From assembly GCA_006218025.1 (NCBI GenBank), contig VBWA01000002.1:120301-184300 (forward strand): DNA of 64,000 bases. The letters are read 5' to 3'. The notes under the pieces are model-generated. The model searched no databases, was not told the DNA's origin, and saw nothing but the letters and a program-made list of their open reading frames with translations. Numbering within the stretch: the stretch's first letter is position 1; each line of letters starts with the position of its first letter. Both the position numbers and the translations under genes were made by a program. Origin of the DNA: Rhodocyclaceae bacterium (GTDB lineage Bacteria; Pseudomonadota; Gammaproteobacteria; Burkholderiales; Rhodocyclaceae). Of the stretch, positions 39,971 through 59,614 are shown piece by piece.

Positions 39971-41158
<1,188 letters not shown>

Positions 41159-41220
41159 TTAGCGTGAAACAACTCCGTCGGAGCGCCAGGTAATAGCCGA
41201 GCGAAGCGAGCAAATTAGAA

Positions 41221-41250
41221 GCCTCCCCGTGAGGGGAGGATGGGAGGGGC
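41221..41250. repeat. Short GC-rich hairpin repeat (CCTCCCC/GGGGAGG)
   Basis: CCTCCCCgtgaGGGGAGG forms a perfect hairpin followed by ATGGGAGGGG. A related segment is inside the DUF1932 gene near 47810-47846. It lies in the 169-bp ligB-pobA gap. Confidence 0.6.
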
Positions 41251-41312
41251 GGGCCTTCAATTCGCCTTTCGCGTGTTTCATTTTCTGCGAGTGGTGCTCG
41301 GTGCCATGCGCG

Positions 41313-42152: not shown

Positions 42153-42154
42153 GA

Positions 42155-42508: not shown

Positions 42509-42534
42509 GTCCTGCCTCCTGTGCGTTTTGATTT

Positions 42535-42606
42535 CGTCATCCCCGCGCAGGCGGGGATCCAGCGGCGTCGCCAGGTCACTGGATTCCCGCTTTCGCGGGA
42601 ATGACG
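42535..42606. repeat. Dispersed inverted repeat (CCCCGCGCAGGCGGGG type)
   Basis: CCCCGCgcagGCGGGG and TTCCCGCtttcGCGGGAA with CGTCAT/ATGACG ends. Same layout as 31578-31652, with different loop and centre. Confidence 0.8.
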
Positions 42607-42617
42607 ACCGTAATGCG

Positions 42618-43616
42618 TCATGTCTCGTCGAATGTTTCGGTGTCGATTTCCGCTTGCGTGGCGGCGTTGTAGCGCGGCCCCGTCACGGTTTTTTGATTGA
42701 TCAGCGCGTTCAGCCGCTCGAGGATGCGGGGTTCGAGTTTCACGTTGACGGCGCCGGCGTTGTCGTCGAGATGCACGGCGCTGCGGGTGCCGAAGATCGG
42801 AATGATGTCCTCTCCCTGCGCCAGCAGCCAGGCCAGCGCGAGCTGCGCCGGCGTGCAGTGGGCCTCGTTGGCGAGACACAGGTACTCGGGCAGCAGGTCG
42901 AGGTTCTTCGCGTAGTTGGCCGGCTCGAAGCGCGGCATCTGGTTGCGGATGTCCTTGGCCTCGAGTTCCGCCTGCGGGTTGCGCAGCGTGCCGGTGAGGA
43001 AGGCGCGGGCCAGCGGGCTGAAGGCGACGAAGGCCGTGCCCAGCTCGCGGCAGGCTTTGAGCGTGGCGATTTTCGGTTCGCGCGTCCATAGCGAGTATTC
43101 CGACTGCAGCGCCGTGATCGGATGTACGGCATGCGCGCGCCGTAGCGTCAGCGCCGACACTTCCGACAGGCCGATGGTCTTGACCTTGCCCGCGCGCACC
43201 AGCTCGGCCAGCGCGCCGATACTGTCCTCGATCGGCACCTGCTTGTCCCAGCGGTGCAGGTAGTAGAGGTCGATGACGTCGGTCTGCAGGCGCTGCAGGC
43301 TGTCCTCGCAGTCGCGCTTGAGGCTTTGCGGCCGGCCGTCGATCACGCGCTTGCCATTGATGCCGGTCATGCCGCCCTTGCTCGCGAGCACGATCTTCGA
43401 GCGGTGCGGCTTCAGCACCCGGCCGAGCAGCGTCTCGTTGACGCCGAAGCCGTAGAGCGCGGCGGTGTCGAAGAAGTTGATGCCGTGATCGAGCGCGCGC
43501 AGCAGCAGCGCTTCGGCGGCCTCCGGCGCGGGCGGCGCGGCGTAGGCGTGGCTCAGGTTCATGCAGCCGAAGCCGAGGGCCGAGACGCTGAAGGGGCCTA
43601 TGCGACGCTGCTGCAT
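42618..43616 (-). CDS. Aldo/keto reductase
   Basis: This NADPH-dependent reductase has 332 residues. LGFGCMNLSHAY, the catalytic Asp/Tyr in FFDTAALYGFGVNETLLG, the Lys in KIVLASKGG, and the His in LYYLHRWD form the AKR tetrad. The C-terminal cofactor part has IIPIFGTRSAVHLDDNAGA. It lies 1 bp after ligC inside the lig operon. It may reduce an aromatic aldehyde or ring-cleavage aldehyde; its role in the pathway is not established. A diverged repeat copy lies in it (43138-43158). Confidence 0.9.
   Translation of the reverse strand: MQQRRIGPFSVSALGFGCMNLSHAYAAPPAPEAAEALLLRALDHGINFFDTAALYGFGVNETLLGRVLKPHRSKIVLASKGGMTGINGKRVIDGRPQSLKRDCEDSLQRLQTDVIDLYYLHRWDKQVPIEDSIGALAELVRAGKVKTIGLSEVSALTLRRAHAVHPITALQSEYSLWTREPKIATLKACRELGTAFVAFSPLARAFLTGTLRNPQAELEAKDIRNQMPRFEPANYAKNLDLLPEYLCLANEAHCTPAQLALAWLLAQGEDIIPIFGTRSAVHLDDNAGAVNVKLEPRILERLNALINQKTVTGPRYNAATQAEIDTETFDET
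43138..43158 (-). repeat. Dispersed GTCGGCG repeat, diverged copy in the aldo/keto reductase gene
   Basis: 18 of 21 positions match, in the same SALxxRR frame (SALTLRR) as in rsmG and mnmE. Confidence 0.4.
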
Positions 43617-43617
43617 G

Positions 43618-45876
<2,259 letters not shown>

Positions 45877-46791
45877 TCAGTTCTCCTCGGGCCAGTAAAG
45901 GCGCATCGGATTGTCGACCAGCAGTTTGCGCTGCAATTCGGGCGTCGTCGCGATGTGCGGAATGAAATCGACCAGCAGGCCGTCGTCGGGCATGTGGTCC
46001 TTGAGGTTCGGGTGCGGCCAGTCGGTGCCCCACAGCACGCGGTCGGGGAAAGTCTCGACGATGCGCCGGGCGAACGGCACCACGTCGCGATAAGCATTCT
46101 GCTCCCCGTGCAACGCCTTCGGGCCGGTGACGCTCAGCCGCTCGGGGCAGCTGACCTTGCTCCAGACGTTCGGATAGTCGCGCATGAACTTGACGAAGAG
46201 TTCGAACTCGGGCCCATCGACCGGCTTGCTGACGTCGGGGCGGCCCATGTGGTCTACGACGATCGTGGTTGGCAGCGCCGTGAAGAAATCCCACAGCTCG
46301 GGCAGGTCCACCGCCTCGAAGTAGATCACCACGTGCCAGCCCAGCGGCGCGATGCGCGCGGCGATTTCCATCAGCTCGTCCTTCGGCGTGAAGTCGACGA
46401 GGCGCTTGACGAAGTTGAAGCGCACGCCGCGCACGCCGGCCGCGTGCATGGCTTGCAGCTCGCTGTCGGTGACGGTGCGGCGCACCGTGGCGATGCCTCG
46501 CGCACGGCCAGCCGAATGAACCAGCGCATCGACCATCGCTCGGTTGTCGGCGCCGTGGCAGGTGGCCTGCACCACCACATTGCGGGCGAAGCCGAGGTGG
46601 TCGCGCAGGTCATAGAGCTGCTGCTTCGAGGCGTCGCAGGGCGTGTATTTGCGCTCGGGCGCAAAGGGAAACTCGGCGCCGGGACCGAACACGTGGCAGT
46701 GCGCGTCCACCGCACCGGCAGGCAGCCTGAAAGTCGGCGCTGACGGTACGGCGTACCAGTCGAGCCAGCCCGGAGTTTTCTGGAATTCCAT
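45877..46791 (-). CDS. ligI: 2-pyrone-4,6-dicarboxylate hydrolase
   Basis: This amidohydrolase opens 2-pyrone-4,6-dicarboxylate to 4-oxalomesaconate. From ATG 46791 it has 304 residues, behind an AAGGAG site. The motif GAVDAHCHVFGPGAEFPFAP, then VVDHMGRPD, and the metal-site aspartate in LWGTDWPHPN, are all LigI-type. The open frame further upstream is a shadow of the DUF1932 gene. A diverged repeat copy lies at its N-terminus (46733-46753, encoding VPSAPTF). Confidence 0.95.
   Translation of the reverse strand: MEFQKTPGWLDWYAVPSAPTFRLPAGAVDAHCHVFGPGAEFPFAPERKYTPCDASKQQLYDLRDHLGFARNVVVQATCHGADNRAMVDALVHSAGRARGIATVRRTVTDSELQAMHAAGVRGVRFNFVKRLVDFTPKDELMEIAARIAPLGWHVVIYFEAVDLPELWDFFTALPTTIVVDHMGRPDVSKPVDGPEFELFVKFMRDYPNVWSKVSCPERLSVTGPKALHGEQNAYRDVVPFARRIVETFPDRVLWGTDWPHPNLKDHMPDDGLLVDFIPHIATTPELQRKLLVDNPMRLYWPEEN
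46733..46753 (+). repeat. Dispersed GTCGGCG repeat, copy in ligI
   Basis: 19 of 21 positions match. It is antisense to the gene, which reads it as VPSAPT. Confidence 0.45.
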
Positions 46792-46793
46792 CG

Positions 46794-47885
46794 TCACTCC
46801 TTGGGTTCGACCTTGTCGAGGATGCGATCGGCTTCGACGCGCCAGTCGGCGCTGCGGGCGAACTCCTTGCTGCCCTTCTTGCCGAACAGACCTTCGTCGG
46901 CGAGGTCGGCGACCCAGGCCTGCCTCTCTGCCGTGCCCTGCGCCGACCACGGCACGAGGCCGATTTCGCGCACGGTCTCGGCGACTTCGCGCACTTCCTC
47001 GCTGCGGCGCCGCCCGTGCTCGATGACGCGCTGGAAGAAGTAGCTCGCCTGCTTTTCCCAGTCGATGCCGGGAAAGGTTTCGTACAACGAGGCGACCACC
47101 GCGTCCTCGACGCCATAAGCGCGCGCCGCGGTGAAGCTTTCGATGACCATGCTTTCCAGCCCTTTGATCATCACGCTGCGGCACATCTTGGTGGCCGAGG
47201 CGACGCCGAGTTTCCCGCTGGCGACCTTCGCCGCGAAGCCGAGCTCGTTGAGCAGCGGCGCCAGCGCAGCGGCGGCAGGGCCGCCGAGCAGCAGCGGCAC
47301 GCGGATTCGATAGGGCGGAATCGAGGTCATCACCGCGCCTTCGACGTAGCGTCCCCCGGCCGCGTCGACAATGCCGGCGGCCCTGATCTTGGCGCCCGGC
47401 GAGGCCGAGTTGACATCAAGGAACCTGGTGCCGGGCTTCAAAGTCGGCGCTGACGACACGGCGACCGGCACGGCCTGGCTGGCGGTGACGGCGGAAATCA
47501 CCAGGTCGGCGCCGGCAGCGAGATCGGAATGGCTGGACATGAGGCGCACGCCGTATTGCGCCGCATGCGCACACAGCGAGCCGTCGTCAGAACTGCCCAG
47601 CTTGATGTCATAGGCGAGGATGTTCGCCACGCCTCGCGCACGCAGGTCCTCGGCCAAAATGCGCCCGACCTCGCCGTAACCGACGAGACCGATGGACCAC
47701 TGCAGCGGATTGGCGGGAATGTTCAGCCGAGCGCGATCTCCCTCTCCCTTGATGGGAGAGGGCCGGGGAGAGGGTGGCGTGACCGTGTGGGCAATTCCCG
47801 ATACGGTGCTACCCCCCTCCATCTCCCCCCGTGAAGGGGGGAGAGCCGCGTTGGCATGCGCTTCGGCTTTTTGGCTGAGCTTCAT
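46794..47885 (-). CDS. NAD(P)-dependent oxidoreductase, DUF1932 type, with repeat-derived N-terminus
   Basis: This 6-phosphogluconate/3-hydroxyisobutyrate dehydrogenase-like protein has 363 residues. The Rossmann motif IGLVGYGEVGRILAEDLRAR starts only near residue 65. The C-terminal half (KVASGKLGVASATKMCRSVM, FPGIDWEKQASYFFQRVIEH) is DUF1932. Residues about 14-56 are encoded by a GC-rich repeat (PPSRGEMEGGSTVSG, PPSPRPSPIKGEGDRA), and no standard start lies between it and the Rossmann fold. It is 11 bp after ligK and 2 bp before ligI. Role in the pathway unknown. Confidence 0.85.
   Translation of the reverse strand: MKLSQKAEAHANAALPPSRGEMEGGSTVSGIAHTVTPPSPRPSPIKGEGDRARLNIPANPLQWSIGLVGYGEVGRILAEDLRARGVANILAYDIKLGSSDDGSLCAHAAQYGVRLMSSHSDLAAGADLVISAVTASQAVPVAVSSAPTLKPGTRFLDVNSASPGAKIRAAGIVDAAGGRYVEGAVMTSIPPYRIRVPLLLGGPAAAALAPLLNELGFAAKVASGKLGVASATKMCRSVMIKGLESMVIESFTAARAYGVEDAVVASLYETFPGIDWEKQASYFFQRVIEHGRRRSEEVREVAETVREIGLVPWSAQGTAERQAWVADLADEGLFGKKGSKEFARSADWRVEADRILDKVEPKE
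47443..47463 (+). repeat. Dispersed GTCGGCG repeat, diverged copy in the DUF1932 gene
   Basis: 18 of 21 positions match; the gene reads it as VSSAPT. Confidence 0.35.
47738..47846. repeat. GC-rich repeat inserted in frame in the DUF1932 gene
   Basis: Two hairpins, CCCTCTCCC/GGGAGAGGG (47740-47763) and CTCCCCCC/GGGGGGAG (47823-47843), lie about 60 bp apart. Each resembles repeats common between genes in proteobacteria. Here they are translated. Confidence 0.7.
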
Positions 47886-47896
47886 GGCTGATCGGA

Positions 47897-48580
47897 TCAA
47901 TCTATGTATTTCAAACCGGCCTTGGCCAGAGGTTCGCGCATGCCGTACATGTCGAGGCCGAGCACGCCGGCGCCAAGCTTGTCGCGCTTGGCGCCCTCGT
48001 TGGTCTCGCGCTTCGCGGCGGCATCGAGCGTCGCCGCGGCCATCGCGCGCGGCACGCACACCACGCCGTCGTCGTCGGCGACGATGACGTCCCCCGGGGT
48101 GACCAGTGCACCGGCGCAAACCACCGGAATGTTCACCGAGCCGAGCGTGGCCTTGATGGTGCCCTTGGCGCTGATGCACTTGCTCCACACCGGGAAGCCC
48201 ATCTCGGTCAGTGTCTTCACATCGCGCACGCCGGCGTCGATGACCAGGGCGCGCGCGCCGCGGGACTGAAAGGACGTGGCCAGCAAATCGCCGAAATAGC
48301 CGTCGGTGCACGCGGCGCTGATCGCCGCGACGACGATGTCGCCCGGCCGGATCTGCTCGGCGACGACATGCATCATCCAGTTGTCGCCCGGGTGCAGCAG
48401 CACGGTGACGGCGGTGCCCGACACCTGCACGCCGGCGTAGATCGGCCGCATGTAGGGCTGCATCAGACCGACGCGGCCCATGGCTTCGTGCACCGTCGCG
48501 CTGCCGAAGCGCGCGAGGCCGTCGGCGACGCCCGCCTCGGTGCGCTGGATGTTGCGATAGACGACGCCCAGTTCGTACAT
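47897..48580 (-). CDS. ligK: 4-carboxy-4-hydroxy-2-oxoadipate aldolase
   Basis: This divalent-metal class II aldolase cleaves CHA to pyruvate and oxaloacetate and can decarboxylate oxaloacetate. It has 227 residues. [37 protein letters not shown] and [20 protein letters not shown] are LigK/HMG-aldolase motifs, with the catalytic arginine/aspartate in [22 protein letters not shown] is also conserved. GGGGAGGTGAC precedes ATG 48580, overlapping the ligJ stop. Confidence 0.95.
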
Positions 48581-48581
48581 G

Positions 48582-49610
48582 TCACCTCCCCTTGTTTTTC
48601 AGCGCGGCGTCGAGCCGCGGATAGGCGCGGCGCGCATTGCCTTCATAGACCTTGTAGCGCTCCTCGGCCGAGAGATTCAGCGTGGCCTCGATGTAGCGCT
48701 TGGTGTCGTCGTAGTTGTGGCCGGTCTCGGGATCGATGCCCTTGACCGCGCCGATCATCTCCGAGGCGAACAGGATGTTTTCCACCGGGATGACCTTGGT
48801 CAGCAGGTCGATGCCCGGCTGGTGATAGACGCAGGTGTCGAAGAAGACGTTGTTCAGCAGGTGGTCCTTCAGCAGCGGCTTCTTCAGCTCCTGCGCCAGG
48901 CCGCGGTAGCGTCCCCAGTGGTAGGGTGCGGCGCCGCCGCCATGCGGGATGACGAACTTGAGGTCCGGGAAATCCTTGAACAAGTCGCCCTGGATCAGCT
49001 GCATGAAGGCTGTCGTGTCGGCGTTGATGTAGTGCGCGCCGGTGGTGTGGAAGCAGGCGTTGCAACTGGTGCTGACGTGGATCATGGCCGGGATTTTGTA
49101 CTCGACCATCTTTTCGTAGATCGGGTACCAGTGGCGGTCGTAGAGCGGCGGCGAAGTCCAGTGGCCGCCGGAAGGGTCGGGGTTGAGGTTGATGCCGACG
49201 AAGCCGTATTCCCTGACGCACTTTTCCAGCTCGGGGATGCAGCTCTTCGGATCGACGCCGGGCGACTGAGGCAGCATCGCCGCGCCGATGAAGTTGTCGG
49301 GAAACAATTGCGCCACGCGGTGGCAGAGCTCGTTGCAGATCGCCGCCCAGGTCGAACTGACATTGAAGTCGCCGATGTGGTGGGCCATGAAGCTGGCGCG
49401 CGGCGAGAAGATGGTGAGGTCCGAGCCGCGCTCCTTCATCTTCTTCAGCTGGTTGGATTCGATGGTCTCGCGCAGTTCGTCGTCGCTGATTTTCAGCTCC
49501 GATGCCTTCGGCATCAGCGCGGAATCCTTGATGCCGGCAATCTGGCGGTTGCGCCATTCCTCCAGCGCCTTGGGCGCCGTGGTGTAGTGGCCGTGGATGT
49601 CTATGATCAT
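48582..49610 (-). CDS. ligJ: 4-oxalomesaconate hydratase
   Basis: This Zn-dependent amidohydrolase-fold hydratase adds water to 4-oxalomesaconate to give CHA. From ATG 49610 it has 342 residues, as in Sphingobium LigJ (341). [20 protein letters not shown] carries the HxH metal motif. [40 protein letters not shown] and the [19 protein letters not shown] block are LigJ-specific. An AGGAGC site precedes it. No 4-oxalomesaconate tautomerase gene (LigU/GalD type) is seen in the window. Confidence 0.95.
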
Positions 49611-49641
49611 TGCTGGGCTCCTGATGTTCTGTATGAGGTGG

Positions 49642-50355
49642 TCACGCCGGCTCCATGCCGTGGCGCCGCTTGATGTCGGCGGCAGCGGGCGATTGCATGA
49701 AGGCGAGCAGGGCGCGCACGGCCTCCGGCTGGGTCGACGCGGCGCACAGGCCGGCCGTGAAAGTGCTGACGATCTCGCAGCCGAGCGGCATGGTGCCGAG
49801 TACGGCGATGCCGGGCTGGCTCGCCATTTCGCTGAACTGCTGGAAGCCGAGTTCGACCTCGCCACTGGCCACCAGTTGGCCCACCGGCACGCCCGGCGGC
49901 GCCTGCACGACGCGGTCGCGGACGGTGTCGGCGATGCCCCAGCGCTCGAACAGCTTCAGCAGTTCGACGCCGCTCGGCCCGGTGGAATAGCCCAGCGTCC
50001 TCGCTGAGAGCACGGCGCGCCGCAGAGCATCTTCCGAGCTGACGTCCGGCCTTGGCGCACCCGAGCGCACCGCGATGGCCACGACCGAACGCACCAGGTC
50101 GGCCTTGCTATCGGCGACCACGCGCCCGGTGGCGATCAGCTTGTCGATCGCATCGGCGGCGAGCACCACCAGATCGAAGGCCTCGCCGGCCTGCACCCGT
50201 TTGGCCGCGTCGACGCCTCCGACCGACTCGAACGTGACTTCGGTGGCAACGTCAGTGGCAACGTCCGTGCCGCTCAGCGCTCGATAGGCGTCGGCCAGTT
50301 CGGCCAGCACCAGGCGCGTCGCCATCGAAGAGATGCCCATGATTCGCTTGTCCAT
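49642..50355 (-). CDS. ModA-like substrate-binding-domain protein without signal peptide
   Basis: This has 237 residues from ATG 50355, or 232 from ATG 50340. GISSMATRLVLAELADAYRA, FDLVVLAADAIDKLIATGRV, YSTGPSGVELLKLFERWGIA and the ending RRHGMEPA match a ModA-like (SBP_bac_11) family that often sits in lig-type clusters. No signal peptide is visible, so it may act in the cytoplasm; its function is not known to me. A short internal repeat, TDVATDVATEV, lies near residue 40. It is the first gene of the lig operon, and the predicted transcript starts at about its ATG. Confidence 0.8.
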   Translation of the reverse strand: MDKRIMGISSMATRLVLAELADAYRALSGTDVATDVATEVTFESVGGVDAAKRVQAGEAFDLVVLAADAIDKLIATGRVVADSKADLVRSVVAIAVRSGAPRPDVSSEDALRRAVLSARTLGYSTGPSGVELLKLFERWGIADTVRDRVVQAPPGVPVGQLVASGEVELGFQQFSEMASQPGIAVLGTMPLGCEIVSTFTAGLCAASTQPEAVRALLAFMQSPAAADIKRRHGMEPA

Positions 50356-50361
50356 GACGGC

Positions 50362-50430
50362 ATTCTGACAATTTCCCCCGGGCGGACCAAGCCGCCGCAC
50401 ACACTACTAGCTATCGCGTTTTGTTATGGC
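50362..50430 (-). promoter_or_regulatory. LysR-type promoter of the lig operon
   Basis: On the minus strand: a 29-bp motif at 50430-50402 (GCCATAACAAAACGCGATAG followed by CTAGTAGTG), 11 bp, TTGGTC (50390-50385), 17 bp, CAGAAT (50367-50362). The same layout and spacing occur at 51359-51427 and 59546-59614. The motif overlaps the last codons of lysR. Confidence 0.8.
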
Positions 50431-51342
50431 ACTGCCATCATCGACGCTGGCCGCCAGCAGGTCCTGCAGCAGGCCCATGGCCCGCCGCCCGAGCGGAGTG
50501 ACCGGCTTGTGCGCCGACACGGCAAGGAACAGCGTGCTGGTCAGGCTCGGCTTGACCAGCGGCCGCAGGCTGAAGGCCTCGGGCCGGCCGGAGGCGGCCA
50601 GCGCGGTCTGGCTCAACACGGCATAGCCGTGGCCGGCCGCCACCAGGTCTAGGATCGACTGGACGCTGGAAACCTCGAGTTTCACGTCGAGCTTGAGATC
50701 GAGGAAGGCCGCCTGCGTCTCCAGCAGCTTGCGCATCGCGTGGGTGCGCTCGGGCAGGATCAGCGGGTAGTTCACCAGTTCGGCCAGCGGCAGCGGCGAC
50801 GCCTTGCCCGGCTTGCCGGCTTTGCCGTCGGCCGGGCCGACCAGGCCGAGCACCTCGTCCAGCACCGGCGTCACCTCGATCGCCGGATTCGGCTCGGGAT
50901 TGTGGATCAGGCCGAGATCGACGCGGCCGGTGGCGATCCACTCCGTCAGGTGCGTCGACAGGCCCTCGACGATCGCCAGTCGCGCCTTGGGCAGGTTGCG
51001 GCGGAAATCCTCGACCAGCGGCAGCGTCAGGCGCCGCCCGATGCTCGGCGGCAGGCCGATCACGATGCGGCCGGTGGGTTCGTCGCGGGTGGCATCGATG
51101 TCCTCGGTGGCGCGCGCGACCAGTTGCAGGATGCCGACGCTGTGATCGAACAGCCGCTTGCCGGCCTCGGTCAGCACCACGCCGCGACCATTGCGCGTCA
51201 ACAGGGTCACATGCAGGTCGGTCTCGAGTAGCCGCACCTGCCGCGACAGCGCGGGCTGGGCGATGTTGAGGACCAGCGCCGCCTTGCTGAAACTGCCCAG
51301 CTCGGCCACGCTGACGAAGTATTCGAGTTGCTTGAGATTCAT
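50407..51342 (-). CDS. LysR-family regulator of the protocatechuate cluster
   Basis: From ATG 51342 (MNLKQLEYFVSVAELGSFSK) it has 311 residues; ATG 51363 would add 7. The helix-turn-helix has FSKAALVLNIAQPALSRQVR and TRNGRGVVLTEAGKRL. Residues about 90-300 are the effector-binding domain (GRIVIGLPPSIGRRLTLPLV). It sits between the lig operon and the divergent TRAP operon, and operator-like motifs lie at both its ends. It probably senses a pathway compound such as protocatechuate or a downstream acid. Confidence 0.92.
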   Translation of the reverse strand: MNLKQLEYFVSVAELGSFSKAALVLNIAQPALSRQVRLLETDLHVTLLTRNGRGVVLTEAGKRLFDHSVGILQLVARATEDIDATRDEPTGRIVIGLPPSIGRRLTLPLVEDFRRNLPKARLAIVEGLSTHLTEWIATGRVDLGLIHNPEPNPAIEVTPVLDEVLGLVGPADGKAGKPGKASPLPLAELVNYPLILPERTHAMRKLLETQAAFLDLKLDVKLEVSSVQSILDLVAAGHGYAVLSQTALAASGRPEAFSLRPLVKPSLTSTLFLAVSAHKPVTPLGRRAMGLLQDLLAASVDDGSAITKRDS

Positions 51343-51358
51343 CCGGAGCGGTGAGGCT

Positions 51359-51427
51359 GCCATAACAAAATGAGATAGCTAATAGTACCCACATTGCCTT
51401 TGCCGCGTCTGGTCATGCTGACATAAT
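51359..51427 (+). promoter_or_regulatory. LysR-type promoter of the TRAP operon
   Basis: The 29-bp motif (51359-51387, GCCATAACAAAATGAGATAG followed by CTAATAGTA) is followed by 11 bp, TTTGCC (51399-51404), 17 bp, and CATAAT (51422-51427). It points at dctQ, 25 bp further. It differs at five motif positions from the lig and iorAB copies. Confidence 0.8.
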
Positions 51428-51451
51428 GGCCGCTCCCATCGGAGACGCCGC

Positions 51452-51991
51452 ATGCAGGAACCGAAACCACCCACCCCGTTCGCGCTCAAGGACAGCTTCG
51501 GTCCCGGGGGCAAACTGCTGCTCGCCGTGGCCCGCCTGATGGCCATCGTCGGCGGGCTGGTATTCGTCGTCCTGGTGGTCATGTCGGTCATTTCCATCGT
51601 CGGACGCAAGACGGTCGGCTTCGTTGTTCCAGGCGACGTCGAAGTACTGCAAATGATGGCAGCCTGCGCATCTGCTTCCTTCTTCCCGTATTGCCATCTG
51701 ATCCACGGTGACGTCAAGGTGGACTTCTTCACCCACAATCTGCCGAAGAAAACGCTGTGGATCATGGACGCCATCGGCTCGCTGCTGGTCGGCCTTTTCG
51801 GGGCCCTGATCGCCTGGCGTTCGTGGCAGGGCGCGATGACGGTCCGTGAATTCAGCGAGACATCGATGATCCTGCAATGGCCGGTGTGGATACCTCAGGC
51901 GCTGATGGTGCCCGGCTTCCTGATGCTGGCCGCGGCCGGCGCCTATCTGTTCGTGCACCAGTTGCGCATGGCATTCCGGGGGCACCCGTGA
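51452..51991 (+). CDS. TRAP transporter small permease DctQ
   Basis: This has 179 residues and four membrane helices, the first at about residues 28-50 (MAIVGGLVFVVLVVMSVISI). The DctQ family feature DVEVLQMMAACASASFFPYC and HLIHGDVKVDFFTHNLP is clear. It is the first gene of a DctQMP-type importer for carboxylates, and its stop overlaps the dctM start. The context suggests uptake of an aromatic or dicarboxylic acid used by the lig pathway. Confidence 0.92.
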   Translation: MQEPKPPTPFALKDSFGPGGKLLLAVARLMAIVGGLVFVVLVVMSVISIVGRKTVGFVVPGDVEVLQMMAACASASFFPYCHLIHGDVKVDFFTHNLPKKTLWIMDAIGSLLVGLFGALIAWRSWQGAMTVREFSETSMILQWPVWIPQALMVPGFLMLAAAGAYLFVHQLRMAFRGHP

Positions 51992-53316
51992 GCGGCACCA
52001 TGATCGGCTTCATCATGTTCGGCATCCTCATGGCGCTGCTGGTGGTGCGCATTCCGATCGGCATCGCGATGTTCATGGTCGGCGCCGGCGGCTATGTGTA
52101 TCTGGTCGGCGACACCCTGCCGTTGCTCAACTCGCTGAAGAACCTGGCCTACGCCCGGCTCTCCAATTACGACCTGGTGGTGATTCCGCTGTTTCTGCTG
52201 ATGGGCCAGTTCGCCACCCACGGCGGCCTCTCGAAAGCGCTGTTTCGTTTCGTCGCGGCCTTCCTCGGCCACAGCAAGGGCGGCGTCGCGATGGCCGCGA
52301 TCGGCGCCTGCGCCGGCTTCGGCGCGATCTGCGGCTCTTCGCTGGCCACCGCGGCGACCATGGGCCAGGTAGCCCTGCCCGAGCTGAAGCGCCACGGCTA
52401 CTCCGGTGCGCTGTCCACCGGCGCGCTGGCCGCCGGCGGCACGCTGGGCATCATGATCCCGCCCTCGGTGCCGCTGGTGATCTACGCCATCCTGACCCAG
52501 GAATCGATCGGCAAGCTGTTCATGGCCGCCATACTGCCCGGCGTGATCGCCATGCTCGGTTACATGGTGGTGGTTCGCATCATCGTCACGCTGAACCCGG
52601 CCGCCGGCCCGGCCGGCCCGGCGACCAGATGGGCGGAAAAGCTCACGAGCTTCATCACCGTGCTGCCGGTGCTGCTGGTGTTCGTCGTGGTCATCGTCGG
52701 CATCTACGGCGGCTGGGCCAACCCGACCGAGGCCGCCGCGATCGGCGCCGCTGCCTGCGGCATTCTTGCCGTCGTCACCGGCGGCATGCGCTTCGAAGGG
52801 CTGATGGAGAGCCTGGTCGGAACGGCGCAGGCCACCGCCATGATCTTCCTCGTGCTGCTCGGCGCCGACATGCTCAACACCGCGCTGGCGCTGTCGCAGA
52901 TGCCGGGCGAACTCGCCACCTGGGTCAAGAACAGCGGCTTCTCGCCGCTGCTGGTGATGGTGATGATCCTCGTCATCTACATCCTGCTCGGCTGCGTGAT
53001 GGACTCCCTGGCGATGATCCTGCTCACCATCCCGATCTTCTACCCGGTGGTGATGGGGCTCGACTACTGGGGCATGTCGCAGGTCGACAAGTCCGTCTGG
53101 TTCGGCATCCTCGCCCTGATGGTGGTCGAGATCGGACTGGTGCATCCGCCGGTAGGCATGAACGTGTATATCATCAACCGCCTGGCCAAGGATGTGCCGC
53201 TGGTGGAAACCTTCAAGGGCGTCATCCCCTTCCTGATTTCCGACTTCCTGCGCATCGGCCTGCTGCTGTTCTTCCCGATCATTTCCTTGTACCTGGTGCA
53301 TACATTTAAACAATAG
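51988..53316 (+). CDS. TRAP transporter large permease DctM
   Basis: From GTG 51988, which overlaps the dctQ stop, it has 442 residues; ATG 52000 is an alternative. About 12 hydrophobic segments include VVIPLFLLMGQFATHGGLSK, GAICGSSLATAATMGQVALP, GGTLGIMIPPSVPLVIYAIL and the late IGLVHPPVGMNVYIIN, all typical DctM blocks. This subunit forms the Na+-coupled channel. Confidence 0.95.
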   Translation: MSGTMIGFIMFGILMALLVVRIPIGIAMFMVGAGGYVYLVGDTLPLLNSLKNLAYARLSNYDLVVIPLFLLMGQFATHGGLSKALFRFVAAFLGHSKGGVAMAAIGACAGFGAICGSSLATAATMGQVALPELKRHGYSGALSTGALAAGGTLGIMIPPSVPLVIYAILTQESIGKLFMAAILPGVIAMLGYMVVVRIIVTLNPAAGPAGPATRWAEKLTSFITVLPVLLVFVVVIVGIYGGWANPTEAAAIGAAACGILAVVTGGMRFEGLMESLVGTAQATAMIFLVLLGADMLNTALALSQMPGELATWVKNSGFSPLLVMVMILVIYILLGCVMDSLAMILLTIPIFYPVVMGLDYWGMSQVDKSVWFGILALMVVEIGLVHPPVGMNVYIINRLAKDVPLVETFKGVIPFLISDFLRIGLLLFFPIISLYLVHTFKQ

Positions 53317-53339
53317 TTTTCCACGGAGGAGACCCACAA

Positions 53340-54374
53340 ATGAAGACCCGCAAACTCACCGGACTCATCGCCGCCGCGGCGCTTGCCGCCGCCACCGGCA
53401 CAGCCATGGCGCAGGAGATCACCCTCAAGGTGCATCACTTCCTGCCGCCGGGCTCGAACGCCCACGCCAACCTGATCGCCCCCTGGTGCGAGAAGATCGC
53501 CAAGGAGTCCGGCAACAAGCTGAAGTGTCAGATTTACCCGGCGATGCAGCTCGGCGGCACACCGCCGCAATTGTTCGACCAGGCGCGCGACGGCGTCGCC
53601 GACATCGTGTGGACCGTGCCCACCTACCAGGCCGGCCGCTTTACCAAGTCGGAAGTGTTCGAGCTGCCCTTCCTGACCAAGAATGGCGAGAGCGCAAGCC
53701 CGGCGCTGTGGGAATACGTGCAGAAGAACGCGCTCGACGAGTTCAAGGGTACCAAGCCCCTCTTCATGCACTTCCATGACGGCGCCGTGTTCCACTTCGG
53801 CAAGGTCGGGCCGAAGAACCTGGAGGAGATGAAGGGCCTCAAGGTGCGCGCACCGACGCGCATCGGCGCCAACGTGATCCAGGCCATGGGCATGGTGCCG
53901 GTGCAGATGCCGGCGCCGGCGGTGCCCGAGGCCATCGCCAAGGGTGTGGTCGACGGCGCCATGATCCCGTGGGAAGTGGTGACGCCATTCAAGCTGCAGG
54001 AAATCACCAAGTTCCACGTCGAGGTGCCGGAGGGCATGCCCAAGCCCTCCAACACCATCTTCATCTTCGCCATGAACCAGGCCAAATACGACAGCCTGCC
54101 CGCGGACTTGAAGAAGGTGATCGACGCCAACAGCGGCATCGAGACCTCGAAGTGGGCCGGCAAGGTGTTCGACGGCCCCCAGGCTCCGGCGCGGAAGATC
54201 TCGCAGGATCGCGGCAATACCTTCATCACCATCACGCCGGCCGAGTACGCGCGCTGGAAGAAGGCCACCGACCAGGTCGACGAGGCGTGGATGAAGGAAG
54301 CCGGCGCCAAGGGCGCCAACGGCAAGGCGCTCTACGACGAGGCGGTGAAGCTGCTCAAGAAGTACGACAAGTAA
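53340..54374 (+). CDS. TRAP transporter substrate-binding protein DctP
   Basis: This periplasmic binding protein has 344 residues. The signal peptide (MKTRKLTGLIAAAALAAATG, cleavage near AMAQ) is followed by ITLKVHHFLPPGSNAHANLI. The carboxylate-binding arginine region is KGLKVRAPTRIGANVIQAMG. GVVDGAMIPWEVVTPFKLQE is also typical of DctP. A GGAGGAGA-like site (ACGGAGGAGACC) precedes it. A terminator follows, ending the operon. Confidence 0.95.
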   Translation: MKTRKLTGLIAAAALAAATGTAMAQEITLKVHHFLPPGSNAHANLIAPWCEKIAKESGNKLKCQIYPAMQLGGTPPQLFDQARDGVADIVWTVPTYQAGRFTKSEVFELPFLTKNGESASPALWEYVQKNALDEFKGTKPLFMHFHDGAVFHFGKVGPKNLEEMKGLKVRAPTRIGANVIQAMGMVPVQMPAPAVPEAIAKGVVDGAMIPWEVVTPFKLQEITKFHVEVPEGMPKPSNTIFIFAMNQAKYDSLPADLKKVIDANSGIETSKWAGKVFDGPQAPARKISQDRGNTFITITPAEYARWKKATDQVDEAWMKEAGAKGANGKALYDEAVKLLKKYDK

Positions 54375-54398
54375 TCATCCGCTGCGTCTGAAAAAATC

Positions 54399-54430
54399 GG
54401 GGCAGGCTCCACGCGGGGTCTGCCCTTTTT
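54399..54430 (+). terminator. Rho-independent terminator after the TRAP operon
   Basis: GGGCAG and CTGCCC pair, with inner CC/GG pairs and a five-T run. The A-run on the left side makes it usable on both strands. Confidence 0.8.
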
Positions 54431-54448
54431 CGTTTCCGGGGAGATTTC

Positions 54449-55291
54449 ATGACTGCAACCACGATCGTTCTGGTCCACGGCGCCTGGCATGGCTCGTGGT
54501 GTTGGCAACCGGTGATTCCCGGGCTGTTGCGCCACGGCTTCGCCCCCTTCACCGTCGACCTGCCCGCGCATGGGCTCGGAGCGCGCTTTCCCGAAGGTTT
54601 CGGCAGCGATCCGCAACGCTTTGCCGCCGCGCCTTCGCCGCACGGCGGGATCACGCTCGAGCATTACACGCAGGCGGTGCTCGACGTGGTCGATGCCGCC
54701 GTCGCGGCCGGCTCGGGGCCGGTGCTGCTGGTCGGCCACAGCATGGCCGGCATCGCGCTGACGGCGGCGGCCGAGCGTGCGCCGGAAAAGATCGCCAAGC
54801 TGGTCTACCTCGCTGCTTTCATGCCGATGCCCGGCGTGCCGATGATCGACTACGTGCGCTGCGCGGAAAACGCGGGGGAAGAAGTGGCCGGTCTGTTCGT
54901 CGCCCCGCCGCCGCAAATCGGCGCCATGCGCATCGACTATCGCAGCGCGGACCCGGCGCATCGCGCGCGCATTCGCAGCGCTTTCTGCCATGACGTCGAC
55001 GACCAGGCTTTCGCCGCGATGGCGCATCTGCTGACGCCCGATGTGCCGGCCGCGCCGGTGGCTGCGCCGACCGTGGCGACCCGCGGGCGCTGGGGCAGCG
55101 TGCCGCGCGCTTACATTCGCTGCAGCGGGGACCGCGCGGTGATGCCTGCCTTGCAGGATAGATTCATTCGCGAGGCCGACGCCTTCACGCCGCGCAACCG
55201 GACCGAGGTGCTGACGCTCGCCGCCAGCCACTCGCCTTTCGTTTCGATGCCCGGGGAACTGGCGCAGGCCCTGGCGGACCTGGCCGGGTAG
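54449..55291 (+). CDS. Alpha/beta hydrolase (methylesterase-like)
   Basis: This has 280 residues. The oxyanion motif LVHGAWHGSWCWQ is at 8-20. The nucleophile Ser98 is in LLVGHSMAGIALTAAA, and the catalytic His is near residue 261 (LAASHSPFVSMPGELAQAL). This resembles plant MES-like and bacterial EstC-like esterases. In this cluster it could free aromatic acids from esters. It follows the TRAP operon terminator with a GGGGAG ribosome site. Confidence 0.88.
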   Translation: MTATTIVLVHGAWHGSWCWQPVIPGLLRHGFAPFTVDLPAHGLGARFPEGFGSDPQRFAAAPSPHGGITLEHYTQAVLDVVDAAVAAGSGPVLLVGHSMAGIALTAAAERAPEKIAKLVYLAAFMPMPGVPMIDYVRCAENAGEEVAGLFVAPPPQIGAMRIDYRSADPAHRARIRSAFCHDVDDQAFAAMAHLLTPDVPAAPVAAPTVATRGRWGSVPRAYIRCSGDRAVMPALQDRFIREADAFTPRNRTEVLTLAASHSPFVSMPGELAQALADLAG

Positions 55292-55294
55292 GGG

Positions 55295-55813
55295 TTACGC
55301 CACCGGCAGTTCGGTGACGGCGCCCTCGGTAGTGCGGCAGACGCCGCAGGCGGCCAGGCGGCATTGCACGCACGCGGCCTTGATGTCCTCGGGGACGGGG
55401 ATGGACTTGATGCGCCGCTTGTCCTCGGGATCGCGGATGGCGAAGATGCGCACCTCGCGCCCCTCGGCCAGAACCGTGTCGCCGCGCCGCGCGACGTGGC
55501 GCATGATGAAGGTCTTGTTGTTCCACTGCTCGACCGTCGTCTCGATCTCGATGTCTTCGCCATAGGTGGCGGAGTTGAGGAATTTCGCCTGGACGTCGAG
55601 CACCGGGGTGCCGATGATGCCGCGCTCGCTTTCCGTCACATGCCAGGTCGGGATGCCGCAGGCCGCAAAGAACTCGCGGCTGGCCGTGTCGAACCAGACG
55701 AAGTAGTTGGCGAAAAAGACGATCTGCGCCGGATCGCATTCCGAAAAGGCGATGCGGTGGCGGTGAATGTGGCGGCGCGGGCACGCTCCAGGTATTTCCG
55801 TGAGATCGTTCAT
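55295..55813 (-). CDS. Acyl-CoA thioesterase (4-hydroxybenzoyl-CoA thioesterase-like) with C-terminal Cys cluster
   Basis: This hotdog-fold protein has 172 residues from ATG 55813. FSECDPAQIVFFANYFVWFD carries the catalytic aspartate of the 4HBT subfamily. The C-terminus is odd: CVQCRLAACGVC, four cysteines in CxxCxxxxCxxC spacing, which usual 4HBT enzymes lack. It overlaps iorB by 4 bp, so it is probably the last gene of the iorAB unit. Substrate unknown; an aryl-CoA is plausible. Confidence 0.85.
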   Translation of the reverse strand: MNDLTEIPGACPRRHIHRHRIAFSECDPAQIVFFANYFVWFDTASREFFAACGIPTWHVTESERGIIGTPVLDVQAKFLNSATYGEDIEIETTVEQWNNKTFIMRHVARRGDTVLAEGREVRIFAIRDPEDKRRIKSIPVPEDIKAACVQCRLAACGVCRTTEGAVTELPVA

Positions 55814-57303
55814 GTTCTGTGTCCTGTACGTTTCATCCATCGCACCGGTATTGCCTTGACCGCTCGGGCCGGCGCGCCGGCTTGCGTCATCGCCGCGTCC
55901 AGGGCCGAGCCGCTGTCGTCGGCCAGCGCGGCTTCGCGCGCGCGGCGGATGGTCCCGGCATCGGTGGATGTCCAATGATTCATTATATGCTTAAAGTTTT
56001 CCTTGGCACGCTCGTTGGTCGCGCCATAGCCCTTGATCAGGCGGGCGCAAAGCGTGAGTTCGAAGGCGTTTTTCCAGCTTGTCGCCGCGGCGCTTTCCAC
56101 CACTGCCAGCCAGTGCTCGATCAGGGCCTGTTCCTCGGCATAGCGCTGGCCGCGGCGCCGCAGCCAGCGCAGCGAGGCCAGCAGGCGCAGGGCAAGAAAG
56201 CCGGAAATGCTGTCGGCGCGCAGCTTCAGGGGCACGGCCAGCGGTGATTTGCCGTCCCGCCGGCGCCGACTCTCCCAGCCCAGCAAACCCTGTCCCAGCG
56301 CTTCCGGCAGCAGCCCGGCAAACTCGGTGACGCCGGGCTTGAAATGATCGGCAATGCTCATCACCTCGCCGGCTTTGGCGCCGGCCTCGCGGCGGACGCG
56401 GTCAAAACGGCCGGCGCGGCTCTTGAGGTCGGCGACGCGCACCACGTCGTCGAAGGCCATCCACAGCGCGAGGAAGCGCGCGCCTTCGCGCGCCAGCTCG
56501 CCGCCGTGTTGCCCCTGCGGATCGGCTCTGCGTTCGGCCGCGCGCAAGCGCTCCACGCGCTGCCGGTAGAGTTCGCCGTAGGCGGCGTCCTGGAAGTCGA
56601 CGACGCGGGCATGACCCAGCGCGATGAGATCGGGCTGCGCGATAACAGTCGGCGCTGGTGCTACGCCGACTGCCGCGCGACAGCGCTCGAAACCAAGGGC
56701 GAAGCCGCGCAGGCTGGCCGCGACGCCGCGCTCCGAGGCGCGGATCACGTCCTCGAAGGCGGTGCGGTCGAAGGGCAGGATGCCGCTCGCTGCGATGGCG
56801 CCGCACAGCACGGCGCTCGGCACCGTGCCCGCTTCGCGCGTCGCAGCGCCCACATCGAATGCCGCCAGTTGCCGGCTGTTGCAGCCGGCAACCCGAAGCA
56901 GGCGCTCACTGTCGAAACGCCCGTCGCCCGGCGCCAGCTTCTCGAAGGTGGTCAGCGTGCGCTGCGAAGACGTGACCAGCGTAGTGCGCTCGGACGAGAT
57001 GAAGCCGTTCTGGATCGCACGCACCGCTTCGAGCAGCTCGGAGGCCACCATCAGATCGACACAGCCCGGCACCGGCGCCAGGCTCATGATCGGCACGCGG
57101 CCGCCGAGTTGCGCAAGGCTTTGCGGAGAAATCTCGACATAGTAGGTCGTGGCGCCGGTGCGCTGGGCCACGCCGGGAATCGAAGTGGCCTGCGCCGGGT
57201 GGCCGCCGCGGATGGCCAGCTCGACCAGCCATTCGGCCAGCACGCCGCCGCCTTCGCCGCCCAGTCCGGCGATCAGTATCGTGATCGGCTGATTCACATT
57301 CAT
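55810..57303 (-). CDS. iorB: Indolepyruvate oxidoreductase subunit beta-like protein (IorB, DUF6537 type)
   Basis: From ATG 57303 it has 497 residues. ITILIAGLGGEGGGVLAEWL and IPGVAQRTGATTYYVEI mark the gamma/POR-type domain of 2-oxoacid:acceptor oxidoreductases. The C-terminal half (about 260-450) is the DUF6537-like domain found in proteobacterial IorB. It overlaps iorA as ATGA. Two repeat-like segments lie inside (56250-56270 and 56648-56668). It works with IorA on an arylpyruvate or other 2-oxoacid. Confidence 0.9.
   Translation of the reverse strand: MNVNQPITILIAGLGGEGGGVLAEWLVELAIRGGHPAQATSIPGVAQRTGATTYYVEISPQSLAQLGGRVPIMSLAPVPGCVDLMVASELLEAVRAIQNGFISSERTTLVTSSQRTLTTFEKLAPGDGRFDSERLLRVAGCNSRQLAAFDVGAATREAGTVPSAVLCGAIAASGILPFDRTAFEDVIRASERGVAASLRGFALGFERCRAAVGVAPAPTVIAQPDLIALGHARVVDFQDAAYGELYRQRVERLRAAERRADPQGQHGGELAREGARFLALWMAFDDVVRVADLKSRAGRFDRVRREAGAKAGEVMSIADHFKPGVTEFAGLLPEALGQGLLGWESRRRRDGKSPLAVPLKLRADSISGFLALRLLASLRWLRRRGQRYAEEQALIEHWLAVVESAAATSWKNAFELTLCARLIKGYGATNERAKENFKHIMNHWTSTDAGTIRRAREAALADDSGSALDAAMTQAGAPARAVKAIPVRWMKRTGHRT
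56250..56270 (-). repeat. Dispersed GTCGGCG repeat, copy in iorB
   Basis: 19 of 21 positions match, read by iorB as SRRRRDG, a frame different from the rsmG copy. Confidence 0.45.
56648..56668 (+). repeat. Dispersed GTCGGCG repeat, diverged copy in iorB
   Basis: About 17 of 21 positions match, read by the gene as VAPAPT. Weakest of the coding copies. Confidence 0.3.
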
Positions 57304-59465
57304 GGTTTCTGAAACAGTCCGATGACGCCACGGCGCGCGGCCGCGAGGAGGCGTTCGCCGAGGCCCGGATTCTGGACGATTTCGACCCGGTAGAAGGAGG
57401 GGCACAGCGTCGCGGCATGGGCGTTTTCCCCGCAGAGGCCGCAGCCGACGCAGCCCTCGATGACGGTGGCGACCGGATCGACCTTGAGCGGATCGTCGCT
57501 GTCCTTCAGCGTCAGCGTCGGGCAGCCGGACAGGCGGATGCAGGAATGGTCGCCCGAGCAGACGTCGTCATCGACGCCGTATTTCACCTTGACCACGCGC
57601 TTGCCCGCCTTGAGCAGGCCGGCAAGCCAGGGCTTGATGCGGCGCTGCCGCTCGAGCTGGCATTCGCCCTCGGCGATGATCACCTTGAGCCCGCCGGTCT
57701 CGGTCGTGAAGGCCTCCTCCAGCGTGCGGCGCATGGTGTCCACCTCGTAGCTGGGCACGGTGCGCAGCCATTTGACGCCGATGCCGGCGAGCGTGTTCTC
57801 GATGGTCTGGTTGCGGTCGACCAGGCTCAGGCGCTTGTCGGGCGCGCCTGCCTTCTCCTCGTCGTCGGGCGTGGAAATGATGTCCTGGGTGCCGGTGGCC
57901 GCGGTATAGCCGTTCTTCATGATCAGCAGCACGGCGTCGTCATTGTTGAACAGCGCCGACTCGACGCCGGTCAACAGGCCGTTGTGCCAGAAGCCGCCGT
58001 CGCCCATCACGGCCAGCGCACGCCGCTTCAGCATGGGCGAAACGCCGGCGCGGCTGGCGAGGCTCATGCCGTAGCCGAGGATGGTGTGGCCGAAGCCGAA
58101 GGGCTCGAAGGTGGCAAACGAGTGGCAGCCGATGTCGGCCGCGACATGCACCGGGCCGACGTTCTGCTGCGCCAGCTTCAGCGCCGAAAACACCGGCCGC
58201 TCCGGGCAGCCGGTGCAGAACTGCGGCGGCCGCGGCGGCAGCGGCGCGGCGAGCTGCGCGACCACGACCTGGCGCCGCGCGGCGTTGGCGGCCAGCCAGT
58301 CCTGCGCAGCGGCCAGCGGCAGATCAACGGCGTGGCGCGCGAGGAACTTGACCAGCCCCTGGGCGATGACTTCGACGGTGTATTCGCCGGCCATTTGCAG
58401 CAGGTCCTTGCCATGAATGGCGGTATTCACGTCCTGGCGGCGCAGCGTCGCCATGATCTCGTGCTCGATGTACTCGGGCTGGCCTTCCTCGACCACCAGC
58501 ACGGCGCGCTTGCCGCGGCAGAAGTCGGCGATCTGTTGCGGCACCAGCGGATAGGTGACGTTGAGCACCAGCATCGGAAACTCGGCGACGCCGAAGGCAT
58601 CGGCGAGATTGAACTGCTGCAGCGCGCGCACCAGGGTGTTGTGCAGGCCGCCCTGGACGATGAGGCCGACGTCATTTGACCCAACTGAGCGCTTGCCGGC
58701 GAACAATTCGTTCAGCCCCTGCTCGACGATGAAGCGCCGCGCGGCCGGCAGGCGCTGCTCGTTCTTCAGCTTCTCCTGGCGGAAAGTGGCCGGCGGATGG
58801 GCGAGCTTCTCGTAGTCGAAGGCGGCCGGCTCGTCGCGCAGGGCCTTGCGCGACATCGCCGGCGAGCGGTTGTCCGCGCATTCGAAGCTGCCGCGCACGT
58901 GGCAGGCGCGCACCCGCAGCTGCAGGATGGCCGGCGTGTTGCAGGCCTCGGACAGCGCAAAGCCCTGCTCGACCATGCGCACCATGTTCGGCAGTTGCGG
59001 CCGCGGATCGAGCAGCAGCAAGGACGACTTCATGGCGAAGGCGTGGGTGCGCTCCTGGATCACGCTGGCGCCCTCGCCGTAATCCTCGCCGACGACGATC
59101 AGCGCGCCGCCGACCACTCCGGGCGAGGCGAGGTTCGACAGGGCATCGGCGGCGACGTTGGTGCCGACCACCGACTTCCAGGTGACGGCGCCGCGCAGCG
59201 GATAGTGGATCGAGGCGCCCAGCATCGCCGCCGCCGAAGCCTCGTTGGAACAGGCCTCGACATGCACGCCGAGCTCGGCCATGTAGTCCTCGGCCTGCAC
59301 CATGACGTCGAGCAGGTGCGACACCGGCGCGCCCTGGTAGCCGCCGACATAGGCCACACCCGACTGCAGCAGCGCCTTGGTGATGGCGAGTATCCCTTCG
59401 CCATGGAAGGTCTCGCCCTTGCCCTGGCGCAGCTGCTGCACTTCCTTGCTGAAGGAAACTTCCAT
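57300..59465 (-). CDS. iorA: Indolepyruvate ferredoxin oxidoreductase subunit alpha (IorA-like)
   Basis: This has 721 residues. An N-terminal pyrimidine domain (GGYQGAPVSHLLDVMVQAED) and a central TPP-binding domain (ALAVMGDGGFWHNGLLTGVE, NGYTAATGTQD) are followed by a [4Fe-4S] region near the C-terminus. That region includes CTGCPERPVF and CVGCGLCGENAHAATLC. The family converts arylpyruvates to aryl-acetyl-CoA with ferredoxin. A LysR-type promoter shared with the lig and TRAP operons lies upstream, so the true substrate may be a 2-oxoacid linked to aromatic breakdown. Confidence 0.92.
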   Translation of the reverse strand: MEVSFSKEVQQLRQGKGETFHGEGILAITKALLQSGVAYVGGYQGAPVSHLLDVMVQAEDYMAELGVHVEACSNEASAAAMLGASIHYPLRGAVTWKSVVGTNVAADALSNLASPGVVGGALIVVGEDYGEGASVIQERTHAFAMKSSLLLLDPRPQLPNMVRMVEQGFALSEACNTPAILQLRVRACHVRGSFECADNRSPAMSRKALRDEPAAFDYEKLAHPPATFRQEKLKNEQRLPAARRFIVEQGLNELFAGKRSVGSNDVGLIVQGGLHNTLVRALQQFNLADAFGVAEFPMLVLNVTYPLVPQQIADFCRGKRAVLVVEEGQPEYIEHEIMATLRRQDVNTAIHGKDLLQMAGEYTVEVIAQGLVKFLARHAVDLPLAAAQDWLAANAARRQVVVAQLAAPLPPRPPQFCTGCPERPVFSALKLAQQNVGPVHVAADIGCHSFATFEPFGFGHTILGYGMSLASRAGVSPMLKRRALAVMGDGGFWHNGLLTGVESALFNNDDAVLLIMKNGYTAATGTQDIISTPDDEEKAGAPDKRLSLVDRNQTIENTLAGIGVKWLRTVPSYEVDTMRRTLEEAFTTETGGLKVIIAEGECQLERQRRIKPWLAGLLKAGKRVVKVKYGVDDDVCSGDHSCIRLSGCPTLTLKDSDDPLKVDPVATVIEGCVGCGLCGENAHAATLCPSFYRVEIVQNPGLGERLLAAARRGVIGLFQKP

Positions 59466-59545
59466 TGCCGCGCCTGGACCTAGGGCAACAGAGGCCGGAT
59501 TGGCATCGTGTTCGCAGCGGGGGCGTTATTGTTTCCCATTTCAGC

Positions 59546-59614
59546 ATTCTGACAAGTTGCCGCCGCCGGGCCAAGCCGCGGTGCGCACTACTAGCTATCG
59601 CGTTTTGTTATGGC
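59546..59614 (-). promoter_or_regulatory. LysR-type promoter of the iorAB operon
   Basis: Minus strand: the 29-bp motif (59614-59586) is identical to that of the lig promoter. It is followed by 11 bp, TTGGCC (59574-59569), 17 bp, and CAGAAT (59551-59546). The iorA start is about 75 nt after the predicted transcription start. Confidence 0.8.

Follow-up and report, generated by a model that had tools for sequence, protein, structure and literature searches.

A predicted LysR operator at protocatechuate 4,5-cleavage, importer and 2-oxoacid oxidoreductase operons of a Rhodocyclaceae bacterium

Protocatechuate (PCA) 4,5-cleavage is a pathway used in lignin and plastic conversion work, and the Comamonas pmd operon serves it (PMC10154247, available part). 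In Novosphingobium aromaticivorans and Sphingobium SYK-6, the pathway genes lie beside the gene for LigR, a LysR-type regulator with sites upstream of the −35 box at the two operons on either side of its own gene and, in Novosphingobium, with footprints at −51 to −85 (PMC12710314, accessible portion). Here, we describe a 29-bp motif found three times in a 64,000-nt stretch of DNA (the window) from a Rhodocyclaceae bacterium (GCA_006218025.1, contig VBWA01000002.1, positions 120,301 to 184,300), whose assembly comprises 4.44 Mb in 141 contigs. The window likewise holds a LysR-type gene beside PCA 4,5-cleavage genes, with predicted sites upstream of −35 boxes at the two operons flanking it. According to the accessible portion of PMC12710314, LigR has two sites, both at lig operons, whereas the window has three, which include those of a transporter operon and of iorAB.

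Importers for lignin-type acids, as proposed here, have been described in Rhodopseudomonas palustris, namely TarPQM, of the tripartite ATP-independent periplasmic (TRAP) type, and CouPSTU, of the ATP-binding cassette (ABC) type, both in that one organism (PMC3610893, available part). In the genomes compared here, the two types share one operator but occupy it in different species. The regulators listed in the part of PMC6449761 available to us include no LysR of PCA 4,5-cleavage. No description of the present operator was found in literature surveyed by titles and abstract openings, a survey that mostly excludes subscription papers and therefore does not show absence from print. The likeness to LigR drawn here is one of domains, gene context, and site placement. 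The regulator of the Comamonas pmd operon is PmdR.

Three operator copies and the adjoining regulator

Direct reading and a recount place the motif at 50402-50430 (minus strand), 51359-51387 (plus strand), and 59586-59614 (minus strand), upstream of the lig operon, a TRAP importer operon, and iorAB, respectively. Each copy is followed by an 11-bp gap, a −35-like hexamer (TTGGTC, TTTGCC, and TTGGCC, in the same order), 17 bp, and a −10-like hexamer (CAGAAT, CATAAT, and CAGAAT), exactly as the preliminary description had reported. The predicted lig promoter thus occupies 50362-50390 (minus; −35 at 50385-50390 and −10 at 50362-50367, with columns fixed over 71 promoters), that of the TRAP operon 51399-51427 (plus), and that of iorAB 59546-59574 (minus; −35 at 59569-59574 and −10 at 59546-59551). 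The lig and iorAB copies are indeed identical across all 29 bp. The TRAP copy had been said to differ at five positions; the recount gives four of 29, all within a 28-mer, the remaining first base, G, being common to the three copies.

To derive the anatomy of the operator, we collected sites in the window and in the fetched loci that depart from the consensus at no more than eight positions. With copies from the same assembly excluded, 80 distinct segments resulted, of which 71 remained once near copies had been removed. Of these 71 promoters, 70, 71, 70, 68, 71, and 71 have the letters A3, T4, C7, G13, A16, and T17, respectively, figures that choosing sites by mismatch inflates inside the motif but not in the downstream boxes, which were unused for selection. 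The invariant letters pair around position 10 as AT-N2-C-N5-G-N2-AT, a dyad containing the T-N11-A of LysR-type sites, and a second element, CT-N2-TAG, follows. Downstream, the −35 letters TTGG at columns 40-43 recur in 53, 49, 44, and 49 of the 71, and A, A, A, and T at columns 64, 66, 67, and 68 of the −10 box (columns 63-68) in 55, 49, 54, and 55. With a predicted start 7 nt past the −10 box, the dyad would be centred near −65 and the operator would span about −75 to −47, upstream of −35 and within the range of about −50 to −85 seen for LigR-type regulators.

The motif matched nothing in 100 shuffles of the window, and at up to three mismatches the whole assembly contains exactly three sites, all in the window, with none for the reversed control; chance is therefore excluded, and there is no crowd of copies away from promoters. 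A looser form of the motif returned the same three sites (reversed control, one). The dyad consensus matches these three without mismatch, two more sites at one mismatch, both within long open frames and devoid of promoter boxes, and seven at two mismatches, which is the chance level (14 in all for the reversed control). A half-motif-plus-box pattern gave the three sites and one on contig C120, its control giving five. Leaving aside the C120 hit, which was not examined, none of these last three scans revealed a further regulon member in the assembly.

The regulator gene, lysR (50407-51342, minus strand), adjoins the PCA 4,5-cleavage operon and encodes a 311-residue protein with a helix-turn-helix and a substrate domain (PF00126 and PF03466, both over cut-off), the proposed binder of the three operators. 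Its position between two motif copies had been recognised before; what had been missed is that the end of lysR, with its last codons and its stop codon at 50407-50409, falls within the lig copy. Also missed was the placement of the TRAP copy only 16 bp before the likely start of lysR at 51342, so LysR would also control itself.

Co-occurrence and reach of the operator

We searched 101 related genomes, including that of the window, taking at least 70% identity as the criterion for a LysR orthologue. LysR was found in 22 of them, and a 20-letter core of the motif (one mismatch allowed) in 21 of these 22 vs none of the 79 others; the exception, G039, carries a four-mismatch copy before its ModA-like/lig operon. 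In Sulfuritalea, the genus in which the window is placed, 31 genomes were compared: LysR and motif are both present in the same 20 and both absent from the same 11. The motif precedes the ModA-like/lig operon in 19 of those 20 (the contig of G004 holds the ModA-like gene only), the lig operon of the twentieth, G009, falling outside the 20 kb fetched. It stays before lig when lysR is found on a different contig or at a distance of 18 kb (L090, L092, and L088), and in G002 (L076) it stands before the TRAP genes, 11 kb from lysR. A core scan over 200 genomes added, beyond the 101, G115, G139, and G141, each with the match beside a LysR relative and lig genes; it also matched G161, where the 18 kb fetched contain no window homologue, and G191. 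G013 presents a decayed lig-promoter copy (L078 6321, minus strand) 3 kb from lysR, with four mismatches and recognisable boxes; its lig operon, on another contig, has a near-intact operator (one mismatch).

At greater distance, the consensus with up to eight mismatches occurs at 31 places in 80 loci with LysR relatives (nine of these places belonging to five loci from the same assemblies as genomes already counted), compared with one place for a shuffled version and none for the reversed one. We then trained a matrix on 47 Rhodocyclaceae sites and applied it to 64 other loci, with six same-assembly loci and ten devoid of a lig gene or upstream DNA left out. Its best site beats all controls in 34 of the 64; in these, the −10 letters are in place in 27 (1.9% expected by chance) and the −35 letters in 19 (5%). 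Where LysR falls below 57% identity, lysR is divergent from lig in most loci, and a diverged operator that outscores every control is found in 20 of 38, mostly titled Burkholderiales; the site diverges along with LysR.

Scanned over 399 genomes from the same order, the whole-promoter pattern (reversed control, none) matched 13 sites, distributed over eight genomes: three in the window, two in G115 (lig and TRAP), and eight in six other genomes. All 13 precede PCA-cleavage operons, transporters, or the window iorAB. Downstream of each of the last eight lies a gene for LigU, a ModA-like protein, LigJ, or a transporter, the latter either ABC (L286) or of the major facilitator superfamily (MFS; L281, whose top score is PcaK at 523 bits, under the cut-off of 770). 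This specificity, the co-occurrence with LysR, and the T-N11-A dyad together support the single LysR regulon that the preliminary description had suggested. Thiomonas locus L122 (18626) and the similar L121 (18461) show a second operator-like site, with genes downstream of it for a protein that seems to be exported and for an ABC-type binding protein (named by eye).

Genes under the operator

The PCA 4,5-cleavage operon lies on the minus strand, with LigA, the LigB subfamily, and LigK all over profile cut-off. Its first gene encodes a ModA-like protein (49642-50355; PF13531; no evident signal peptide by eye) and is followed by a ligJ-type amidohydrolase gene, 4-oxalomesaconate hydratase by context (48582-49616; no NCBIfam match), a gene at 47897-48580 (TIGR02798, 400.7 bits, over the cut-off of 304.5), and genes for a DUF1932 oxidoreductase, a ligI-type hydrolase (by context), ligA, ligB, and a ligC-type dehydrogenase (by context), at 43618-47840. 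An aldo/keto reductase gene and pobA, for 4-hydroxybenzoate 3-monooxygenase (TIGR02360, 701.5 bits, over cut-off), follow (39971-43616), with a second ligA/ligB-like pair between them at 41313-42508. The ATG of the ModA-like gene is 6 nt past the lig −10 box (50355-50367), which predicts a leaderless message or a start at an internal ATG; iorA also starts 6 nt past the −10 in four relatives (L067, L069, L191, and L194), again predicting leaderless messages.

A search of all 31 Sulfuritalea genomes, G000 included, returned no match to the LigU tautomerase (NF033377) at E 1e-30. Considering neighbours within 6 kb on the same strand, 92 LigJ loci have a ModA-like gene in 60 cases, a LigU-like gene in 13, neither in 19, and both in none; five are the same assemblies twice, and the 87 distinct loci divide into 56 with ModA-like only, 13 with LigU only, 18 with neither, and none with both; a diverged LigU could escape the search for LigU in these loci, made with one query at E 1e-20. 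The ModA-like protein has an invariant GISSMATR stretch (10 rows) and is weakly related to solved ModA (best E 9e-05). This apparently cytoplasmic protein may be a substitute for LigU at the tautomerase step. In G062 (L215 7551-10446), an iorA homologue is immediately preceded by a ModA-like gene (49%).

The TRAP importer (51452-54374, plus strand) consists of dctQ (51452-51991), dctM (51988-53316), and dctP (53340-54374). DctP (TRAP_S1) and DctM are over cut-off, and dctQ, with no NCBIfam match, is named by place and size; an alpha/beta hydrolase gene (54449-55291, plus) probably belongs to the same operon. In the 20 Sulfuritalea genomes with LysR, the operator precedes TRAP genes in 12, ABC genes in six (G004, G005, G009, G013, G021, and G025, at three to six mismatches), neither in two, and both in none. 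G007 and G018 also own the ABC protein (its front missing in G018), with no operator within 1.5 kb upstream, while their TRAP genes have one. The transporter under the operator is thus swapped between species, TRAP, ABC, or MFS, a point absent from the preliminary description. On a LysR tree of 27 rows, two of them outgroup, the ABC label needs five changes, at least four of which are forced by well supported branches; since 173 of 500 shufflings of the labels gave as few changes, the labels show no clustering beyond that of shuffled ones and we claim only that the transporter has changed repeatedly.

The best solved relative of the ABC protein is 4ey3 (E 1.5e-137), whose ligands are presumably benzoate-type, and DctP matches 5im2 (2.6e-93) as well as 7nr2, 7nsw, and others, the 7n entries being, we assume, aromatic-acid TRAP proteins. 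The presence of an ABC importer in sister genomes and of a PcaK-like MFS protein in another genus in the same slot makes aromatic acids the more likely cargo. An importer thus keeps its place in the regulon, but "carboxylate", as it had first been labelled, is too general. At G000:C104:150752-151774 (L256) and on G028:C33 (L255) lies a DctP paralogue, 57% identical, whose frame is interrupted by a single TGA.

The third operon, also on the minus strand, begins with iorA (57300-59465), for the alpha subunit of a 2-oxoacid:ferredoxin oxidoreductase. With 246 bits to TIGR03336, IorA is below the equivalog cut-off of 651, and the enzyme is accordingly filed as a 2-oxoacid oxidoreductase rather than an indolepyruvate-specific one. 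The next gene, iorB, includes DUF6537 (55810-57303; PRK08312, 527.7 bits, over the cut-off of 348) and precedes a 4-hydroxybenzoyl-CoA thioesterase-like gene (55295-55864; start codon tentative). The closest solved relative of the latter is the Pseudomonas 4-hydroxybenzoyl-CoA thioesterase 1bvq (E 4.7e-32), with Asp17 aligned and kept by homology, a residue that we take to be catalytic in 1bvq. The native context of 1bvq, in its presumed Pseudomonas host, is presumably that of a dehalogenase, whereas the window gene follows iorAB. In Aromatoleum, IorAB converts phenylpyruvate to phenylacetyl-CoA (PMC9765128, available part). From this reaction and the 1bvq-like thioesterase after iorB, we infer a feeder branch to 4-hydroxybenzoate; an aromatic 2-oxoacid as its substrate would be a guess. 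No thioesterase match was seen in 13 fetched loci with an iorA homologue of at most 75% identity, and among the neighbours of distant iorAB genes, inspected by eye in five loci, those in L216 resemble the benzoyl-CoA pathway and the others show no clear theme.

Proposed regulon and competing explanations

Based on these comparisons, we consider it very likely that the three copies are sites of the LysR encoded at 50407-51342 and that this one regulator would drive the lig operon, a probable aromatic-acid TRAP importer, and the iorAB-thioesterase operon. LysR would bind the operators, each with a recognition dyad centred near −65 that the CT-N2-TAG element follows and each 11 bp before a predicted sigma-70-type promoter, acting, as LigR does, as an activator that answers to PCA or a related acid. 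The TRAP importer would bring in 4-hydroxybenzoate or PCA. IorAB and the thioesterase may convert an aromatic 2-oxoacid, through its CoA ester, into free 4-hydroxybenzoate, to be consumed by PobA and the lig enzymes. The comparison supports a putative LysR regulon of the LigR kind with wider and changeable membership, the novelty lying in the regulon content.

Several results weigh against this proposal. The 101 genomes searched are related, so that their counts are worth less than independent ones. In 30 of the 64 distant loci, the best matrix site fails to beat all controls, and these include both Rhodopseudomonas loci (L125 and L126) and both Comamonas loci (L170 and L179), the latter unlike the 20 low-identity loci with a control-beating operator. 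Part of these failures arises because LigU comes first in several loci and anchored the search too far downstream; among the failing loci, L104, L117, and L119 have sites in the consensus scan, and L106, L113, L115, and L133 have weak ones, judged by eye, after lysR. The LigR core TT-N-GC-N6-TTAT, taken from the accessible part of its description, is matched by eye at seven of eight letters in the lig and iorAB copies and six of eight in the TRAP copy, on the opposite strand. G003 and G017 have LysR and no operator-bearing TRAP or ABC genes, neither protein being found there at E 1e-120. With regard to the feeder branch, the thioesterase accompanies iorAB in nine of 12 genomes and is missing from G001, G015, and G027, where the iorA site is lost too; in G021 it sits near lysR and the ABC operon, apart from this iorAB, which weakens the feeder idea. 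Lastly, the iorA promoters of G001, G002, G015, and G027 have no dyad, only a right-half remnant.

The lost dyads bear on the strongest alternative, namely that the regulon consists of lig and TRAP only and that the iorAB copy is stray or decaying and has no effect. Twelve Sulfuritalea genomes have an iorA of at least 84% identity, and 11 of the upstream regions are readable: the full dyad is present in seven and lost in four, so control of iorAB is not general even in the genus. In addition, the flanks of 16 more distant iorA matches contain no site at nine or fewer mismatches, and the 399-genome pattern scan found the operator at iorAB in no other genome. Set against this, the iorAB sites of G000, G028, and G010 show 0, 1, and 0 mismatches with both boxes, and in G030, G008, G007, and G018 other letters have changed while the six dyad letters, the second element, and the boxes are kept, as expected for a site under selection. 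We therefore regard this alternative as unlikely. The inclusion of the oxidoreductase in the regulon, claimed at the outset, would hold for seven of the 11 Sulfuritalea promoters and fail for the four others and the 16 distant matches; iorAB is a predicted, lineage-limited member. It was also considered that the iorAB operator might be a recent duplication of the lig promoter, which was rejected on the flanks and on the diverged iorA copies.

That some other regulator binds the motif, the adjacency of LysR being incidental, appears improbable. Stray 20-letter matches in G161 and G191 speak for it, and binding of the motif by LysR is itself a prediction; yet the motif follows LysR from genome to genome, its invariant letters form a LysR-type dyad, and the site changes as LysR changes.

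The lig copy also serves as the end of its own regulator's gene, encoding in its own genome the last LysR residues, AITKRDS. Among 25 lysR genes examined, the operator is read as ITKRDS-stop in five (G000, G028, G010, G008, and G115) and in another frame, as HNKTR-stop or a close form, in 15, the remaining five having no site at the 3' end. The same DNA being read in two frames in different species, the constraint acts on the DNA; for this reason we rejected the idea that the lig copy is due to coding constraint. Where lig is located elsewhere, the tail can persist with no site in it: that of G006 reads SHNKTR, those of G025 and G017 are altered, and G013 has none. By locus, L079 keeps such a tail and L075 and L080 an altered one, with no site left at any of them. 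Such siteless tails are probably fossils. The coding of AITKRDS by the lig copy could suggest that its identity with the iorAB copy goes back to a lysR 3' end that was duplicated recently and retained for its coding sequence, an explanation that is already contradicted and to which we give almost no credence, given the two frames, the unlike flanks of the two copies in G010 and G028 (by eye), the iorA copies in more distant species, and G015, whose lig operon has an intact copy in front of it and whose copy at the end of lysR is decayed.

Returning to the LysR regulon, a bolder extension, which we put forward only tentatively and hold to be rather doubtful, would make the operator a socket for whichever aromatic-acid importer a lineage has, to which Sulfuritalea adds the IorAB-thioesterase pair, with the ModA-fold protein as an unrecognised 4-oxalomesaconate tautomerase. 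The regulon as proposed provides a testable operator sequence for the regulation of PCA 4,5-cleavage in many Betaproteobacteria and predicts importers that would handle lignin-type acids. IorAB-type enzymes are usually held to be oxygen-sensitive, and the regulon would tie such a ferredoxin-linked enzyme to an oxygen-dependent ring-cleavage pathway.

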